Position numbers and translations under genes: made by a program
The notes under the pieces: generated by a model
Told to the model about the DNA's origin: nothing
Database searches by the model: none
The model's input: the letters and a program-made list of their open reading frames with translations, nothing else
Shown here: piece by piece, positions 28,871-35,395 of the stretch
Layout of the letters: every line of letters begins with the position of its first letter
How positions within the stretch are numbered: position 1 is the stretch's first letter
DNA from: Candidatus Woesearchaeota archaeon
GTDB lineage: Archaea; Nanobdellota; Nanobdellia; Woesearchaeales; GW2011-AR4
Direction: 5' to 3'
Assembly: GCA_016187465.1 (NCBI GenBank)
Contig: JACPJQ010000007.1
Coordinates: forward strand, 1 to 64,000
Length of the DNA stretch: 64,000 nt

Positions 28871-28960
28871 TTTAAAAATTACTACAGCTATATTTATATA
28901 CTTTTCGTCGGTATTCTGAATAGGTATACATTTAAATAATGAACAGAGTTGCTCTTTGTT

Positions 28961-30100
28961 ATGGTAATTGCCATAAAATTCATTGACAAGCACATTGGGA
29001 ACTTCACTTGCAATTTTCTGGCATTGTTCAACAGGAAAAGAAAAATAGAAAAAGCAGAATTTGCGAGAGTGCTTGTGATACAGCTGTGGGGCATAGGAGA
29101 GACCATTTTAACGCTGCCGGCAGTTGATGCCTTAAGAAAAAGATTCCCAAAGGCAGAAATAAATGTTTTAGCCACTTCAAGAAACCGGGATGTATTTTAC
29201 AATAATAAAAGCATAGACAATGTCTTAGAACTGAAACTGAATCCCGTATCAGTTGCCGGTTTTATTTTAAAAAATATTAAAAAGTATAATCTAGTTGCTG
29301 ATATGGAGGAGTATCTTAATGTTTCTGCTATTATTTCCTTTTTTGCAGGCAGAAATAGCATAGGATACTCCCACAACTCAAGGGCGAAACTTTACACAGA
29401 GAGAATTAGGTATAATGACAAGCAGCATGCAGCACAGACATTTTTGGACCTTGTGAGGGTGTTGGAGGTTAAGTATGATGTCAGCAATCTCTCTAAATTG
29501 AATTTCTCCAAAAATGATAAGAATTTTGTTGAAAGGTTTTTAAAAAACAATGGCATAAAAAGCAGGGATTTTATCGTATGTGTTGCTCCGGGAGCTGCCG
29601 AGTCTGCAAAGGCGAGAATGTGGCCTTATGAGAGATACGCTGAGGTTTGTGATGAAGTCATAATCAGGCACAAGGCAAAGATAATTTTCGTCGGCAATTT
29701 GGGCGAAGCGGAACTTATAGCCAATATACAAAATGTGATGGAAAAGATGGACAAGACAATAAATGCTGCCGGTAAAATCAGCTTGAACCAATTATTCTGC
29801 TTGACAGGCATGTGCAGTCTTTTTATAGGAAATGATGCTGGCCCGATGCATATCGCGGCTGCCCAAGGAATAAAAACTCTTGGTTTATTCGGGCCGAATA
29901 TCCCGGCAAGATTCGGGCCCTGCGGAAAAGGCAATATAGGCCTGTACAAGGGATACAACTGCGAGTTCAGCCCGTGCATCAATGTCCACAAAGGGCAGGT
30001 TCCAGATTGCCTGTATCCAAGAAACAGCAATGACTACCAAAAATGCATGAAGAATATTAGTGTGGATGATGTGCTGAGGGAAGTCGAGAAATTGGTTTAG
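28961..30100 (+). CDS. GT9 heptosyltransferase-like glycosyltransferase
   Basis: 379 residues from ATG 28961 (a TTG at 28949 is in frame, but the TATA-like ACATTTAAAT sits 26-29 bp before the ATG). GT9 marks are VIQLWGIGETILTLPAVDAL near the N-terminus, VAPGAAESAKARMWP in the middle, and FIGNDAGPMHIAAAQG with TLGLFGP in the nucleotide-sugar site. GT9 enzymes use ADP-heptose in bacterial LPS core synthesis. The C-terminus has a small cysteine set (YNCEFSPCINVH, PDCLYP). Together with the heptose genes at 33-35 kb this suggests a heptose-containing archaeal glycan. Confidence 0.88.
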   Translation: MVIAIKFIDKHIGNFTCNFLALFNRKRKIEKAEFARVLVIQLWGIGETILTLPAVDALRKRFPKAEINVLATSRNRDVFYNNKSIDNVLELKLNPVSVAGFILKNIKKYNLVADMEEYLNVSAIISFFAGRNSIGYSHNSRAKLYTERIRYNDKQHAAQTFLDLVRVLEVKYDVSNLSKLNFSKNDKNFVERFLKNNGIKSRDFIVCVAPGAAESAKARMWPYERYAEVCDEVIIRHKAKIIFVGNLGEAELIANIQNVMEKMDKTINAAGKISLNQLFCLTGMCSLFIGNDAGPMHIAAAQGIKTLGLFGPNIPARFGPCGKGNIGLYKGYNCEFSPCINVHKGQVPDCLYPRNSNDYQKCMKNISVDDVLREVEKLV

Positions 30101-30552: not shown

Positions 30553-31131
30553 TTACCAAAACCCTTTCCTTATGAGCTCTGATTCCTTATCCTTGTCTTT
30601 ATCTGTAACTCTTTTTGAAACAACAACAACTGCATGGTAAAAAGGTATATGTATTGACAAAAGATTGCGGAAACCGTGCCTTCTGAAAAGCCACCTGACG
30701 CTTATTTTTGTGACAGGTTTTTTGTGGTCGGGAACATTGTAAAAGCTTTTTGAAAGGTAAGCGCTTATTGTGATGACAATATTGTTTGATAAGGACGCCA
30801 TTTTTTTGACGAATTTTTCCTGGTCGTCCATGTGCTCCATAATCATGCTGTCAAACACAACATCGTACTTGCCTTTAAGGCTCCACAAATCCCCTATGAT
30901 TACATTCTTTGCCCTGTATCTTTCGTCAGCTTCTATTCCGTATGACTTATAACCAAGCTGATTTGCTACTTTCATGAATTGCCCCGGGCCGCATGCCACA
31001 TCCAACACTGTTTTGCAGCCTCTGCAGTATTTTCTTAAAAGCCACTTATAGAACTGGTTTCTTACAAAATATTTTACCTTGCTCTTGAACCCAATCCTGT
31101 CTTTCCAGGGATTGCTGTATAATTTTGCCAT
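30553..31131 (-). CDS. Class I SAM-dependent methyltransferase
   Basis: 192 residues. Motif I is VLDVACGPGQFMKVA (about 42-56), the acidic loop is SYGIEADE and post-I is FDSMIMEHMDDQEKFV. The N-terminus is basic and aromatic. The acceptor is unknown; the neighbours (sugar nucleotidyltransferase-like, GT9) suggest a glycan or its precursor. It lies 32 bp after the RHH-fusion gene on the same strand and may be cotranscribed with it. Confidence 0.85.
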   Translation of the reverse strand: MAKLYSNPWKDRIGFKSKVKYFVRNQFYKWLLRKYCRGCKTVLDVACGPGQFMKVANQLGYKSYGIEADERYRAKNVIIGDLWSLKGKYDVVFDSMIMEHMDDQEKFVKKMASLSNNIVITISAYLSKSFYNVPDHKKPVTKISVRWLFRRHGFRNLLSIHIPFYHAVVVVSKRVTDKDKDKESELIRKGFW

Positions 31132-31163: not shown

Positions 31164-31919
31164 TTAGGCTTCGCTGAAGTGGAAGTATTCTCCATAAGTG
31201 AAAAAGCCGACAAGCTGCTTTATCCTTGCGAGTTTTGGAAATAAATCCTTTTCAAGCGAGACAGTGTCCTCAAAAACCTCAAATACCTCCGGCTTAAAAA
31301 TATAGATTCCTGCATTGACAATGTTTGTGGAGCTGTGTTTTGGCTTCTCATGAAAATCAACAATTAAATCTCCATCCAAGATTGCTGTTCCGTAAGCGCT
31401 TATTTTTTCCCTTGTCATCAGCCCCATTGTTGCAAGCTTTTCCGACGTTAAATGCTTTTTCATCATCTTTGCCAGGTCGAAGTCATTATAAGTGTCGCCT
31501 GACATCACGACAAAACTGTTGTCAATTTTGCCCTTTATTGCCTTCAGGGCATCTGCATTTCCTTTTGCCTGCTTCTCAATTATTTCTACGCTTATTTTTG
31601 CATTTGAAATTTCACTCAGCAAAGAATTCATGTTTTTTGTGTGCTGGGTTATGATATAAACTGTTTTTATTCCGCAATTCATGAAGAACTCAATCTGCTG
31701 TTTTATTAAAGTTGTGCCTCTGATATTTTTCAGCGCAAGCGGCTGGTGCTCTCCCTTGAGCATCAGCACAGCAACACTTATTGATTGCTCATGCAATCCT
31801 TTCTTTAGGAAATACTCTATTGCCTGTGACCTGCTTCTTATGACAGACTTGTCTACTTTGGAGTCTATCAGCTTCAGAAGGGAATTGTCAAGTGAAATAG
31901 CTATTTTTGCCTTGCTCAT
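31164..31919 (-). CDS. RHH DNA-binding domain fused to a nucleotidyltransferase-like domain
   Basis: 251 residues. Residues 1-45 form a ribbon-helix-helix (CopG/Arc-type) domain: strand KIAISLDNSLL, then helices ending SRSQAIEYFLKKGLHE. Residues ~47-251 have the sugar-phosphate nucleotidyltransferase fold, with VAVLMLKGEHQPLALKN at the nucleotide loop, MSGDTYNDFD at the metal strand, and FHEKPKHSSTNIVNAGIYIF. The usual glycine-rich GxGTRLxPLT loop is degenerate here (no GTR), so catalysis is doubtful. Palindromic AGTA-N-TACT sites lie at its own promoter. I infer a regulator that senses a sugar nucleotide or phosphate and controls this divergent sugar operon; an active enzyme that also regulates is the alternative. 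Confidence 0.8.
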   Translation of the reverse strand: MSKAKIAISLDNSLLKLIDSKVDKSVIRSRSQAIEYFLKKGLHEQSISVAVLMLKGEHQPLALKNIRGTTLIKQQIEFFMNCGIKTVYIITQHTKNMNSLLSEISNAKISVEIIEKQAKGNADALKAIKGKIDNSFVVMSGDTYNDFDLAKMMKKHLTSEKLATMGLMTREKISAYGTAILDGDLIVDFHEKPKHSSTNIVNAGIYIFKPEVFEVFEDTVSLEKDLFPKLARIKQLVGFFTYGEYFHFSEA

Positions 31920-31926
31920 TTTCTAT

Positions 31927-31955
31927 AGTATTACTAAGTAGGAGAAAGTATTACT
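31927..31955. promoter_or_regulatory. Operator-like double palindrome
   Basis: AGTATTACT occurs at 31927-31935 and again at 31947-31955, exactly 20 bp apart (about two helical turns). Each is a perfect AGTA-N-TACT palindrome of the size an RHH dimer contacts. The second abuts the minus-strand TATA-like CTATATAAAG (about 31954-31962) of the RHH-fusion gene, and the first lies near its expected start site. Related half sites (TAGTATATAA at 31976-31985, AGTCATACT at 32021-32029) extend toward the divergent cupin gene. Confidence 0.6.
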
Positions 31956-32042
31956 TTATATAGTTTTATATTCTATAGTATATAATTGAAAAGCGAAAGA
32001 TTTATAAATAGGTATGAAAGAGTCATACTTCTAGTGTTAAAT

Positions 32043-32447
32043 ATGAAAGAAAGCGAAAAATTCAAAGAAGAGCAGATTAGGCTTTTGGCAGGTTTCAAAG
32101 GAGAAAGGCATGAGCATCTTTGGGGTCATGAGTTATGGATCGAGAACAACGAGAAGTATTGCAACAAGCTTTTGATTTTGCATAAAGGGTTTGAATCAAG
32201 CTGGCACTATCACGAGCGCAAGGACGAGACATTCGTAATTCTTGAAGGCCAAGTTTCACTAACTTACGCAAATGGCCCAAATGCCCCCCGCCAGACGTTA
32301 ATATTGGATAAAGGGGGCAAATTCAGGTTAAAACCGGGAGTTATTCATTCGTTTAAATCACTGGTGCCTAAGAGTACTGTCATGGAGATATCAACAACAG
32401 ATGATGGCGACAATATAAAATTACGCCCTGCAAGAAAAATTGATTGA
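32043..32447 (+). CDS. Cupin (mannose-6-phosphate isomerase type II-like)
   Basis: 134 residues from ATG 32043. An earlier in-frame ATG at 31986 lies inside the promoter region; GATTTATAAATAGG about 37 bp before 32043 supports the later start. The single cupin barrel has the metal motif SWHYHERKDETFVILEG with the His-x-His pair and a later HSF. Such cupins occur as sugar-phosphate isomerase domains and sugar epimerase relatives. As first gene of the heptose operon it may act on a sugar phosphate or bind the product. Confidence 0.8.
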   Translation: MKESEKFKEEQIRLLAGFKGERHEHLWGHELWIENNEKYCNKLLILHKGFESSWHYHERKDETFVILEGQVSLTYANGPNAPRQTLILDKGGKFRLKPGVIHSFKSLVPKSTVMEISTTDDGDNIKLRPARKID

Positions 32448-32452
32448 AAAAT

Positions 32453-33367
32453 ATGTATTCAACATACAAAATGCTAGACTTCAACAAAATAAAAACAATC
32501 CCAATAAAACAGAGAAAGAATAAAGTTAAGCTGAGTGATTTGGTTAAGCCGGAGAATTCTAAAATAAGTTTTGACTCAAAAGAATTCAACGAATTGGCTA
32601 AAAGAATAATTATTGCGCACAAAAACAAGAAGCAAACAATTCTTATGATGGGCGCCCATGTCATAAAAACTGGCATGAGCCTTTTAATAATAGATTTAAT
32701 GAAGAAAGGAGTTATAAAACATGTTGCAATGAACGGCGCAGGCCCTATTCATGATTTTGAACTTTCTTTAATCGGAGAGACATCTGAGTATGTTGAACAG
32801 ACAATAGAAGACGGCACTTTCGGGATGATAGAAGAGACTGGAAGCATATTAAATGAAGCAATAAAAGAAGGCGCAAAGAATAATTTTGGCTTAGGGTATT
32901 CCATCGGCAAAAAAATTAATGATTTAAATCTTCCAAATAGAGAATGCAGCATTTTATACAATGCCTACAAATTAAATATTCCAGTTACCGTGCACGTTGC
33001 AATCGGGACCGACATAATACATCAGCATCCAAGCTGTGACGGCGCTGCTGTTGGAAAAACAACTTATAGTGACTTTAAGACTTTTGCAGAAAGCGTGAGC
33101 AGGCTCGAAAATGGAGTTATACTGAACATTGGGTGTGCTGTGATACTCCCAGAAGTTTTTCTGAAGGCTTTAACGATTGCGAGAAATTTAGGCTGCAAAG
33201 TCAGTAGTATAACCGCTGCAAACATTGACATGGCAGACCATTACAGGCCAAGGGAGAATGTCGTACAGAGGCCGACTTCACTGGGCGGAAAAGGATTTAT
33301 AATAATCGGAAGACATGAAGCAACAATACCTTCGTTGCACAGGAGGGTAATTGACGGCATTGATTAA
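32453..33367 (+). CDS. Deoxyhypusine-synthase-like protein of the heptose operon
   Basis: About 304 residues from ATG 32453 (TTG 32444 and ATG 32471 are alternatives). It is recognisably related to the true deoxyhypusine synthase at 8978. GAHVIKTGMSLLIIDLMKKG aligns with that protein's GPLVPAGMREIIIDTINN, and NGAGPIHDFELSLIG with TGATLTHDLGEALG. It lacks the SWGK lysine needed for deoxyhypusine formation and has its own conserved-looking blocks (HQHPSCDGAAVGKTTYSDF, HYRPRENVVQRP). It lies between the cupin (stop 5 bp upstream) and the heptose kinase. A role in sugar-phosphate chemistry is inferred from context only. Confidence 0.8.
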   Translation: MYSTYKMLDFNKIKTIPIKQRKNKVKLSDLVKPENSKISFDSKEFNELAKRIIIAHKNKKQTILMMGAHVIKTGMSLLIIDLMKKGVIKHVAMNGAGPIHDFELSLIGETSEYVEQTIEDGTFGMIEETGSILNEAIKEGAKNNFGLGYSIGKKINDLNLPNRECSILYNAYKLNIPVTVHVAIGTDIIHQHPSCDGAAVGKTTYSDFKTFAESVSRLENGVILNIGCAVILPEVFLKALTIARNLGCKVSSITAANIDMADHYRPRENVVQRPTSLGGKGFIIIGRHEATIPSLHRRVIDGID

Positions 33368-33409: not shown

Positions 33410-34390
33410 ATGAAAATAAAACAGCGTTTATTAAAAATACTTGAAAATTTCAAAAATAAAAAGATTCTTGTTATAGGGGATATAATGCTTGACAAGTACA
33501 TCTGGGGGGAAGTTTCAAGGATAAGCCCCGAAGCTCCTGTCCAGGTTGTAAATGTAATGAAAGAGACTTATGAGGCAGGCGGGGCAGCAAATGTGGCAAA
33601 CAATGTTTCCGCGCTTACAGGAAATGCTTTTATGGTGGGAATTGCTGGCAATGATGAAGCAAAGGAAGTCCTTTTGGGGGAATTGCGCAAAAAGGGCATA
33701 AACACAGAAGGAATATTCACAGATAAGGACAAGCCAACCACTCAAAAAATGAGAATTGTCGGAAGAGGGCAGCAATTGTTAAGGGTGGATTACGAAAATA
33801 AAGGGCATGTCCACAAAGATATTGAGAATTCTTTAATAAAATTCATCAAAGAGACAATCAAGAGTATTGATGTCGCTGTAATTTCCGATTATGCAAAAGG
33901 AGTTATAACAGAGAAGCTGATTAATGAGCTTGCCGCAGCAGCAAAAAAATTTGGCAAAGCAGTCATAGTTGATCCAAAGCCAAAACACAGCAATCTTTAC
34001 TCTCATGTAACCTTAATAACCCCCAATAATGCAGAGGCAAGCGAGATGGCTGGCCTGGAGGAAGGAAGCGATGACGCTGTCAAGAAGATAGGGTTAAAAC
34101 TTTTGAAGCGCCTTAACACAAATGTCCTGGTAACGAGAGGGGAAAAAGGCATGTCTTTATTTGAGAAAAATGGCAGCATAACGCATATTCCCGCAAAAGC
34201 CAAGGAAGTTTACAGTATAATAGGGGCTGGCGACACAGTTGTTGCGACCATAGCGCTTGCAGTAGCTTCCGGGGCAAGCCTGAAAGATGCTGCAACATTG
34301 GCCAACATGGCGGCAGGGATTAAGGTAGGAAAGATAGGCACTGCCTCGGTGAGCATAGACGAGATAAAAAAGGAAATAGAGAATCTATGA
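33410..34390 (+). CDS. hldE1: D-glycero-D-manno-heptose-7-phosphate kinase (PfkB family)
   Basis: 326 residues, corresponding to the kinase half of bacterial HldE. Marks include VIGDIMLDKYIWGEVSRISP and GGAANVANNVSAL near the N-terminus, VISDYAKGVIT, IVDPKPKH and the catalytic GAGDTVV motif near residue 272. In bacteria it phosphorylates heptose-7-phosphate at C1. Its last four bases overlap the start of the phosphatase gene (ATGA), showing translational coupling in the operon. A ribokinase-like enzyme of other specificity is possible, but the neighbours argue for heptose. Confidence 0.9.
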   Translation: MKIKQRLLKILENFKNKKILVIGDIMLDKYIWGEVSRISPEAPVQVVNVMKETYEAGGAANVANNVSALTGNAFMVGIAGNDEAKEVLLGELRKKGINTEGIFTDKDKPTTQKMRIVGRGQQLLRVDYENKGHVHKDIENSLIKFIKETIKSIDVAVISDYAKGVITEKLINELAAAAKKFGKAVIVDPKPKHSNLYSHVTLITPNNAEASEMAGLEEGSDDAVKKIGLKLLKRLNTNVLVTRGEKGMSLFEKNGSITHIPAKAKEVYSIIGAGDTVVATIALAVASGASLKDAATLANMAAGIKVGKIGTASVSIDEIKKEIENL

Positions 34391-34917
34391 CAAAGGCAGT
34401 TTTCATTGATAGGGATGGTATTTTGGTTGAAGACCCTGGCTTTGTGCATAAGCTCGAGGATTTTAAATTGATTGAAAATGCGGTTGAAGGGCTGAAACTG
34501 CTCAAAGGCTACAGGCTTTTCATAGTAACAAACCAGTCAGGCATAGGAAAGGGTGTCTACAGGCTTGAGGATTTTTTGAGATTCAACAGCCATTTGATAA
34601 AGACATTAAGAAAATATAATATAAAAATTGAAAAAACTTATTACTGCCCCCACAAGCCGGAAGACAACTGCGAATGCCGCAAGCCAAAGGCAAAGTTTTT
34701 GAAAGACGCTGAAAAAGAGTTTGGCATTAATATAAAAAAATCTTTTATTATAGGGGACAGGAAAAGCGATATGGAATTGGGAATTAATTGCTATTGCAAA
34801 ACAATATTCATTGCCAATAAAAAGACTAATGAAGCAAAAAATAAAATCGCTGCTGATTATTTTGCGGAAGATTTGGTTGATGCTGCGAAGTGGATTTTAA
34901 AAAATGACAATCAATAA
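34387..34917 (+). CDS. gmhB: Heptose 1,7-bisphosphate phosphatase (GmhB-like HAD)
   Basis: 176 residues. The HAD catalytic motif is FIDRDGILVED (nucleophile Asp in DRDG), motif II is VTNQSGIGKG and the late motif is IGDRKSDMELG. The zinc loop CPHKPEDNCECRKPK is diagnostic for the GmhB/histidinol-phosphatase group. The bacterial enzyme removes the 7-phosphate from heptose 1,7-bisphosphate. It overlaps both its neighbours (4 bp with the kinase, 14 bp with the nucleotidyltransferase), so it is part of one operon. Confidence 0.92.
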   Translation: MTKAVFIDRDGILVEDPGFVHKLEDFKLIENAVEGLKLLKGYRLFIVTNQSGIGKGVYRLEDFLRFNSHLIKTLRKYNIKIEKTYYCPHKPEDNCECRKPKAKFLKDAEKEFGINIKKSFIIGDRKSDMELGINCYCKTIFIANKKTNEAKNKIAADYFAEDLVDAAKWILKNDNQ

Positions 34918-35395
34918 GAAAATCAAAACATTAGACGAGCTTATTCCAATAGTCAAAAAACTAAAAAAACAAAATAAAAAAATAGTCACAACCAATGGGG
35001 TTTTTGATATTCTCCATTTCGGGCATGTCAAGTATCTTGAAGAGGCCAAAAAGCTGGGTGATGTGCTAATTGTCGGAGTGAACACAGATGCTTCTGTAAA
35101 GCTGATTAAAGGTGATGGAAGGCCAATAAACGGTGAAGAATCCAGAATTGGTGTTTTAGCAGGGCTTGAAAGCGTTGATTACGTCTTCTTGTTTGGCGAT
35201 GAAAATCCCGCAGGCTGGGTTGCAGAAATCAAACCGGATGTCCATGCTAAAGGAGGCGACTATGAGATAAGCCAGATAACCGAAAGGCATGTTGTTGAAA
35301 ATAATGGCGGAAAAGTTATATTGATTCCTATGCTAAAAGGCTGTTCTACCACCAGTTTAATAAACAAAATTCTTTCTATTTACAGAAATCAATAG
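34904..35395 (+). CDS. hldE2: Heptose-1-phosphate nucleotidyltransferase (RfaE2-like)
   Basis: 163 residues, corresponding to the second half of HldE. NGVFDILHFGHVKYLEEAKK contains the HxGH nucleotide motif, followed by VGVNTDASVKLIKG, the substrate segment RPINGEESRIGVLAGLESVD and KGGDY. KGCSTTSLINKI is the family's C-terminal ISTT-like block. It would transfer AMP (or another nucleotide) to heptose-1-phosphate. The kinase and nucleotidyltransferase are separate genes here, unlike the fused E. coli enzyme. Confidence 0.92.
   Translation: MTINKKIKTLDELIPIVKKLKKQNKKIVTTNGVFDILHFGHVKYLEEAKKLGDVLIVGVNTDASVKLIKGDGRPINGEESRIGVLAGLESVDYVFLFGDENPAGWVAEIKPDVHAKGGDYEISQITERHVVENNGGKVILIPMLKGCSTTSLINKILSIYRNQ

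Follow-up and report, generated by a model that had tools for sequence, protein, structure and literature searches.

A Retired Sugar Nucleotidyltransferase Fused to a NikR-Type DNA-Binding Domain as a Likely Local Repressor of Heptose-Nucleotide Synthesis in a DPANN-Type Genome

Trigger enzymes combine an enzymatic role with an effect on gene expression. Two further kinds of described system come close to the protein considered here. The first is E. coli NikR, whose operator is GTATGA-N16-TCATAC (PMC7055735). The second is GMPPA, a catalytically dead relative of GDP-mannose pyrophosphorylase that binds GDP-mannose and gives feedback (PMC11228364). No published description of proteins joining a ribbon-helix-helix (RHH) domain to a nucleotidyltransferase was found in the open-access literature, and an earlier description elsewhere is possible. 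Very little is known about metabolic control in uncultured small-genome archaea and bacteria.

Here, we analyze a stretch of DNA of 64,000 nucleotides (the window), which belongs to a DPANN-type genome of 1.62 Mb whose close relatives are Woesearchaeota. We will argue that an RHH-nucleotidyltransferase encoded in the window is a local one-component, autoregulated repressor of heptose-nucleotide synthesis, a reading to which we give a probability of about 0.74, and that its dead domain most likely reports activated heptose. The gene and its two domains are located as follows.

31164..31919, minus strand: RHH-nucleotidyltransferase regulator, an open reading frame of 251 residues with 49 orthologs within the same clade
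31785..31919, minus strand: RHH DNA-binding domain, residues 1-45, by similarity to Pfam RHH_1 and NCBIfam NikR
31167..31775, minus strand: nucleotidyltransferase-fold domain, residues 49-251, the predicted sensor (PF00483, E 9.1e-25)

The NTP_transferase profile PF00483 matches residues 67-216 with 88.1 bits (cut-off 21.2). The RHH_1 match at residues 8-35 scores 17.7 bits, slightly below the Pfam cut-off of 20.5, and the Pfam search leaves the RHH domain undetected in most family members. The nearest solved relatives of the RHH profile are E. coli NikR (1q5v, E 5.5e-6) and P. horikoshii NikR. In the AlphaFold model (mean pLDDT 91.2, pTM 0.82) the RHH helices span residues 12-20 and 30-44 and precede the nucleotidyltransferase fold; the RHH strand, which forms pairs only in a dimer, is not assigned in this monomer. 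Foldseek matches the C-terminal domain to VTC1, GMPPB and GMPPA with TM of about 0.7. The domain matches and the model confirm that the 251-residue protein is a NikR-type RHH domain fused to a sugar-nucleotidyltransferase fold, the architecture claimed in the original prediction. The putative DNA-reading strand is K5-I-A7-I-S9, and its K, A and S are kept in 49, 47 and 45 of the 49 aligned orthologs, respectively. Membership in three described families was considered and rejected: for NikR, TIGR02793 gives 19.6 bits against a cut-off of 175.45 and the C-terminal domain is PF00483, while the NCBIfam scores for HddC and GlmU are far under their cut-offs.

In a midpoint-rooted tree, the direct orthologs form clade A (49 rows plus one outlier, support 100/99), whose members are Woesearchaeota and one Aenigmatarchaeota. 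The roles of catalytic and sugar-side residues, which we take to be as established for the RmlA/GlmU family, were carried over by alignment. Three active-site positions are relevant here.

31707..31760, minus strand: remnant of the GxGTR...PK signature loop, residues 54-71, from the alignment of the 49 orthologs
31494..31496, minus strand: Asp142, the first metal Asp, kept in 49/49
31179..31181, minus strand: His247, at the position of the second metal Asp, His in 48/49 orthologs

All 49 aligned clade A orthologs have the catalytic Arg replaced and the Pro-Lys segment deleted, and all have lost the second metal Asp, with His in its place in 48 of them. On the sugar side, the NAGxY motif keeps its N in 46/49 and its G and Y in 49/49 each, and the EKP motif its E in 43/49 and its K in 46/49. 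As judged from the alignment, catalysis has been lost throughout the clade while the sugar side of the pocket has been kept, in agreement with the earlier description of the protein as a retired enzyme. That description called the glycine-rich loop degenerate; the loop is indeed altered, but the wording understates the change, as about 9 residues are deleted from the window protein, the catalytic Pro-Lys among them. Assignment as an active sugar-1-phosphate nucleotidyltransferase was rejected, clade A lacking the full signature of G-x-G-T-R...P-K plus two metal Asp.

The retained first metal Asp and sugar-side residues could also fit a protein that is still an enzyme, with altered chemistry and with DNA binding as a secondary property. 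We regard this as extremely improbable, considering the loss of the catalytic Arg, the Pro-Lys segment and the second metal Asp in every ortholog, and that hldE2 in the adjoining operon (see below) already serves nucleotidyl transfer. Another option is a DNA-binding regulator whose nucleotidyltransferase domain only dimerises or tetramerises and senses nothing. Members of this nucleotidyltransferase superfamily form oligomers, and the protein has lost its NTP-binding loop, both of which would suit such a role. It is rather unlikely, however, since the strongly conserved sugar-side residues, together with the specific His at the metal Asp position, suggest that the pocket is under selection. 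We therefore favor the sensor reading, in which the domain would bind a nucleotide sugar or a sugar phosphate.

We now turn to the surroundings of the gene. On the same strand, a methyltransferase gene (30553-31131), found in only a few relatives, begins 32 bp past the regulator's stop and may be co-transcribed with it. The divergent operon has the order cupin, GSU2086-family gene, hldE1, gmhB, hldE2, and is called a heptose operon here because hldE1 and hldE2 pass the NCBIfam cut-offs.

28949..30100, plus strand: GT9-family heptosyltransferase, a convergent neighbour conserved in many relatives
32043..32447, plus strand: cupin, first gene of the operon (profile match), alternating with gmhA in relatives
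32453..33367, plus strand: GSU2086-family protein, deoxyhypusine-synthase-like (NF052581, E 8.5e-125)
33410..34390, plus strand: hldE1, heptose-7-phosphate kinase (TIGR02198, 377.7 bits, cut-off 345)
34387..34917, plus strand: gmhB-like heptose bisphosphate phosphatase (PRK08942, 155 bits, under the cut-off of 178)
34904..35395, plus strand: hldE2, heptose-1-phosphate adenylyltransferase (TIGR02199, 192.9 bits, cut-off 181.5)

Of the steps expected of an ADP-heptose biosynthesis operon (kinase, phosphatase, nucleotidyltransferase and isomerase), the isomerase has no recognised gene: no GmhA was detected in the operon or elsewhere in the window's genome, the cupin being in its place. Across the window and the relatives L079-L098, the operon opens with gmhA at 17 loci and with a cupin at 11, and no locus has both (p 0.0004); the cupin may be a non-homologous replacement of the phosphoheptose isomerase. 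The GSU2086-family gene (10 loci) and an NAD-dependent epimerase (15 loci) likewise mostly alternate in the operon, with both present within 9 kb in 2 loci; the epimerase of L089 looks HldD-like by eye.

Between the two divergent genes lie two promoters, each with a candidate operator.

31955..31962, minus strand: TATA box of the regulator's own promoter, CTATATAA, conserved in the alignment of relatives
31927..31955, no strand: own-promoter candidate operator O2, two AGTATTACT sites, conserved in relatives
31995..32010, plus strand: BRE/TATA of the divergent heptose operon, GAAAGATTTATAAATA, conserved in the alignment of relatives
32012..32028, no strand: heptose-operon candidate operator O1, GTATGAAAGAGTCATAC, from the genome motif search, conserved in relatives

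O2 consists of AGTATTACT at 31947-31955 and at 31927-31935 with a weaker TACT-containing site between them, the units being about 10 bp apart. The two perfect AGTA-N-TACT palindromes reported earlier at this promoter are thus present, 20 bp apart, and the pair is unique in the genome. O1 is a perfect GTATGA-N5-TCATAC palindrome directly after the TATA box of the heptose operon. The half sites predicted toward that operon therefore exist, but they form a full palindrome; and while AGTA-N-TACT holds as the operator motif at the regulator's own promoter, the main operator of the heptose operon is built from the NikR half-site instead.

When one mismatch is allowed, the palindrome has two matches in the window's genome, at the O1 promoter and at one other place, C4:77569; O1 is the sole match identified as a promoter site. 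The only other exact palindrome-like match, at C3:122339 with a 2-bp spacer, falls inside a gene that looks like glucose-6-phosphate dehydrogenase rather than in a promoter, and no wider regulon is claimed for this reason. Within the window, AGTANTACT occurs 3 times against 0.5 expected, which is weakly unusual. As such single-window motif statistics are only weakly significant, the argument draws on relatives instead.

The 150-bp regions preceding 46 clade A genes contain 103 GTATGA/TCATAC half-sites, where dinucleotide-preserving shuffles give 3.6 and the flanking rate predicts 2.7. Upstream of 35 RHH-nucleotidyltransferase genes from CPR bacteria there are 35 half-sites (2.7 expected), and upstream of 9 genes of the paralogous clade B there are 11 (0.3 expected), whereas 0/10 nucleotidyltransferase genes without an RHH domain have one. 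Palindromes within 200 bp upstream of clade A orthologs number 25, with 0.0 expected. Half-site spacings are 9-11, 20-21, 24, 28 or 31 bp, nearly all close to multiples of the helical turn. The motif is retained among orthologs down to about 39% identity and is missing from the own promoter of orthologs L042, L049, L055 and L056. Both the fusion, in 49 orthologs, and the operator motifs at orthologous loci are conserved; absence of the motifs from these loci, which would have refuted the original prediction, is not what we observe.

Clade A loci carry two operators, each beginning right behind a TATA box. The one near the divergent operon is GTATGA-N5-TCATAC; the one by the regulator start comprises AGTAATAC, TACTACT and TTCATAC about 10 bp apart, its last unit being AGTAATACT in the window. 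At most loci the sites lie 0-21 nt past the regulator's own TATA box and about 3-30 nt past the divergent one. An alignment of 13 relatives has the operators and the BRE/TATA elements as its conserved blocks, and the intervening sequence has diverged.

This placement bears on the direction of control. The sites could be activator sites, with the protein turning the heptose operon on: RHH proteins can activate, as AmrZ does (PMC3325190), and the sites of the active-looking paralog discussed below lie upstream of BRE, in an activator-like position. The clade A sites, on the other hand, are located between TATA and the start region at both promoters, where a bound protein should block initiation, and activation is decidedly unlikely. 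Repression of both promoters is accordingly the reading we adopt as the more probable one.

We also considered heptose operons that do not adjoin the regulator, namely 5 loci with the clade A gene on another contig or 7-22 kb away, and 10 loci of the same order with hldE1 present and only a clade B match or no match. The 17-bp palindrome is kept in 4/5 of the former, directly upstream of a first gene that is a cupin, gmhA, an hldE1 fusion or a GT9 gene, and in 0/10 of the latter (Fisher p = 0.004 over 15 loci in total; as the genomes are drafts, absences may reflect gaps in the assembly). The exception, G079, has no palindrome at the operon and no sites at its own regulator either. Elsewhere in the clade A loci, which amount to about 658 kb, five palindromes were found, each of them at or close to either the regulator or the beginning of a linked gene of the heptose operon or of the GT9 family; the palindrome of L058 is counted both among these five and among the four above, and the called gene starts by the L090 and L091 sites are uncertain. 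That palindromes are kept at heptose operons no longer adjoining the regulator supports the earlier claim that it controls glycan precursor synthesis.

The sites might instead be read by another RHH protein, such as a NikR-like one, since NikR reads GTATGA and the window's genome contains one NikR-like RHH ORF. This is very improbable. The sites go together with RHH-nucleotidyltransferase genes in archaea as well as in CPR bacteria and are gone from heptose operons without the regulator; moreover, their spacing is 11 or 21 bp and not the 22 of NikR, and no GTATGA site was found at the NikR-like ORF's own locus. The half-site was derived from the upstream sequences before any comparison with NikR was made, and its match to the NikR half-site is thus independent support for the RHH domain of the regulator as the reader of these sites.

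The mechanism that we propose is as follows. RHH dimers would bind half-sites of the GTATGA/TCATAC type and of the variant GTAWTAC at distances of one or two helical turns, such that dimers on adjacent half-sites line up on the same face of the helix and cover the start region of both divergent promoters. Bound dimers would block initiation, so that the heptose operon is repressed and the regulator represses itself. The dead C-terminal domain would report the level of activated heptose, either NDP-heptose or heptose 1-phosphate, and abundant product, acting as corepressor, would shut the heptose operon down. This choice of ligand and effect is favored because of the analogy with GMPPA; a precursor may act as inducer instead of an end product acting as corepressor.

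It is also of interest how the regulator relates to the rest of its family. Among genomes of the same order, 184/288 have a match with E no greater than 1e-15. The full-length relatives returned by a scan of 84,980 genomes belong to Woesearchaeota, to one Aenigmatarchaeota and one Micrarchaeota, and to CPR bacteria, and a direct survey of one CPR phylum gives strong matches in 43/380 genomes. Besides clade A, the tree contains clade B, a small degenerate clade C and the CPR homologs. Clade B consists of RHH-bearing paralogs with an intact active site in 9/9 (one with Ser at the loop Thr), which rules out that all RHH-nucleotidyltransferases are dead. The CPR homologs keep the PK segment and both metal Asp, with the catalytic Arg in 9/35 and Lys instead in 16/35; given this frequent replacement, they may or may not be active.

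The window's genome has members of all three archaeal clades. The clade B member, L002, adjoins a phosphomannomutase-like gene, and its divergent promoter is common to a cluster of apparent FBPase, aldolase and GAPDH genes, identified by eye. The direct repeat TCATACTTTATCATAC occurs exactly once in this genome, at the clade B promoter (C3:227338-227353; L065, L264), upstream of both BRE elements. Half-sites are inverted at 11 bp in clade A and direct at 10 bp for the paralog. From the single TCATACTTTATCATAC and the O1 palindrome, it appears that the two paralogs have a half-site in common but arrange it differently, which, if true, would keep their circuits apart. The clade C member, L003 (G000:C1:150553-151302), is degenerate in both catalytic and sugar-side residues, and its neighbour resembles a tRNA-splicing endonuclease by eye. 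In CPR bacteria, GTATGATA repeats are present in promoters upstream of RHH-nucleotidyltransferase genes (L179, L189, L197, L201, L207, L216), adjoining a TATAAT-like -10 element in L197, L201 and L216.

Because intact or nearly intact relatives in DPANN and CPR share the RHH domain and the half-site, the fusion is, by parsimony, probably older than the loss of catalysis; the alternative that the DNA-binding domain was gained upon retirement of the enzyme is rejected because of the same RHH domain in those relatives. A broader reading, which we put forward tentatively and at slightly less than even odds, is that RHH-nucleotidyltransferases make up a hitherto undescribed class of transcription factors that read metabolites in DPANN and CPR, in which intact or nearly intact members report nucleotide-sugar status to their own promoter and one branch became a dedicated NDP-heptose-responsive repressor. 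Active-looking and retired members with a common DNA-binding head coexist in one genome, which would allow the evolution of a transcription factor from an enzyme to be tested directly. Sequence alone yields here a regulator, its likely operators, the operon it targets, a recognition rule resembling that of NikR, and a family broad enough for in vitro testing.

Compared with the described systems, the regulator shares with E. coli NikR the half-site GTATGA/TCATAC and the layout of an RHH domain followed by a C-terminal sensor. Its sensor is a nucleotidyltransferase fold and not a nickel-binding domain, and its half-sites are spaced by 11 or 21 bp compared to 22 in NikR. The NikR reading strand R-x-T-x-T is shared by clade B and most CPR members, whereas clade A has K-x-A-x-S. 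With HddC, GlmU, RmlA and AglF (PF00483) the protein has in common the fold, the first metal Asp and the GD, EKP and NAGxY motifs, but these enzymes catalyse, while the regulator is without the GxGTR...PK loop and the second metal Asp. Candidates for trigger enzymes are the RHH-bearing members that have an intact or nearly intact active site, among the paralogs and the CPR homologs alike; with no catalytic residues left, the window protein is closer to a dedicated regulator. The likeness to GMPPA lies in the same fold and in a dead nucleotidyltransferase, which in GMPPA senses the nucleotide sugar of its pathway. GMPPA is eukaryotic, has a C-terminal extension and no RHH domain, and works by protein contact with GMPPB without acting on DNA. 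The regulator would thus parallel GMPPA in a prokaryote, as a sugar-nucleotide enzyme that has lost catalysis and now serves as a sensor, wired to DNA rather than to a partner enzyme.
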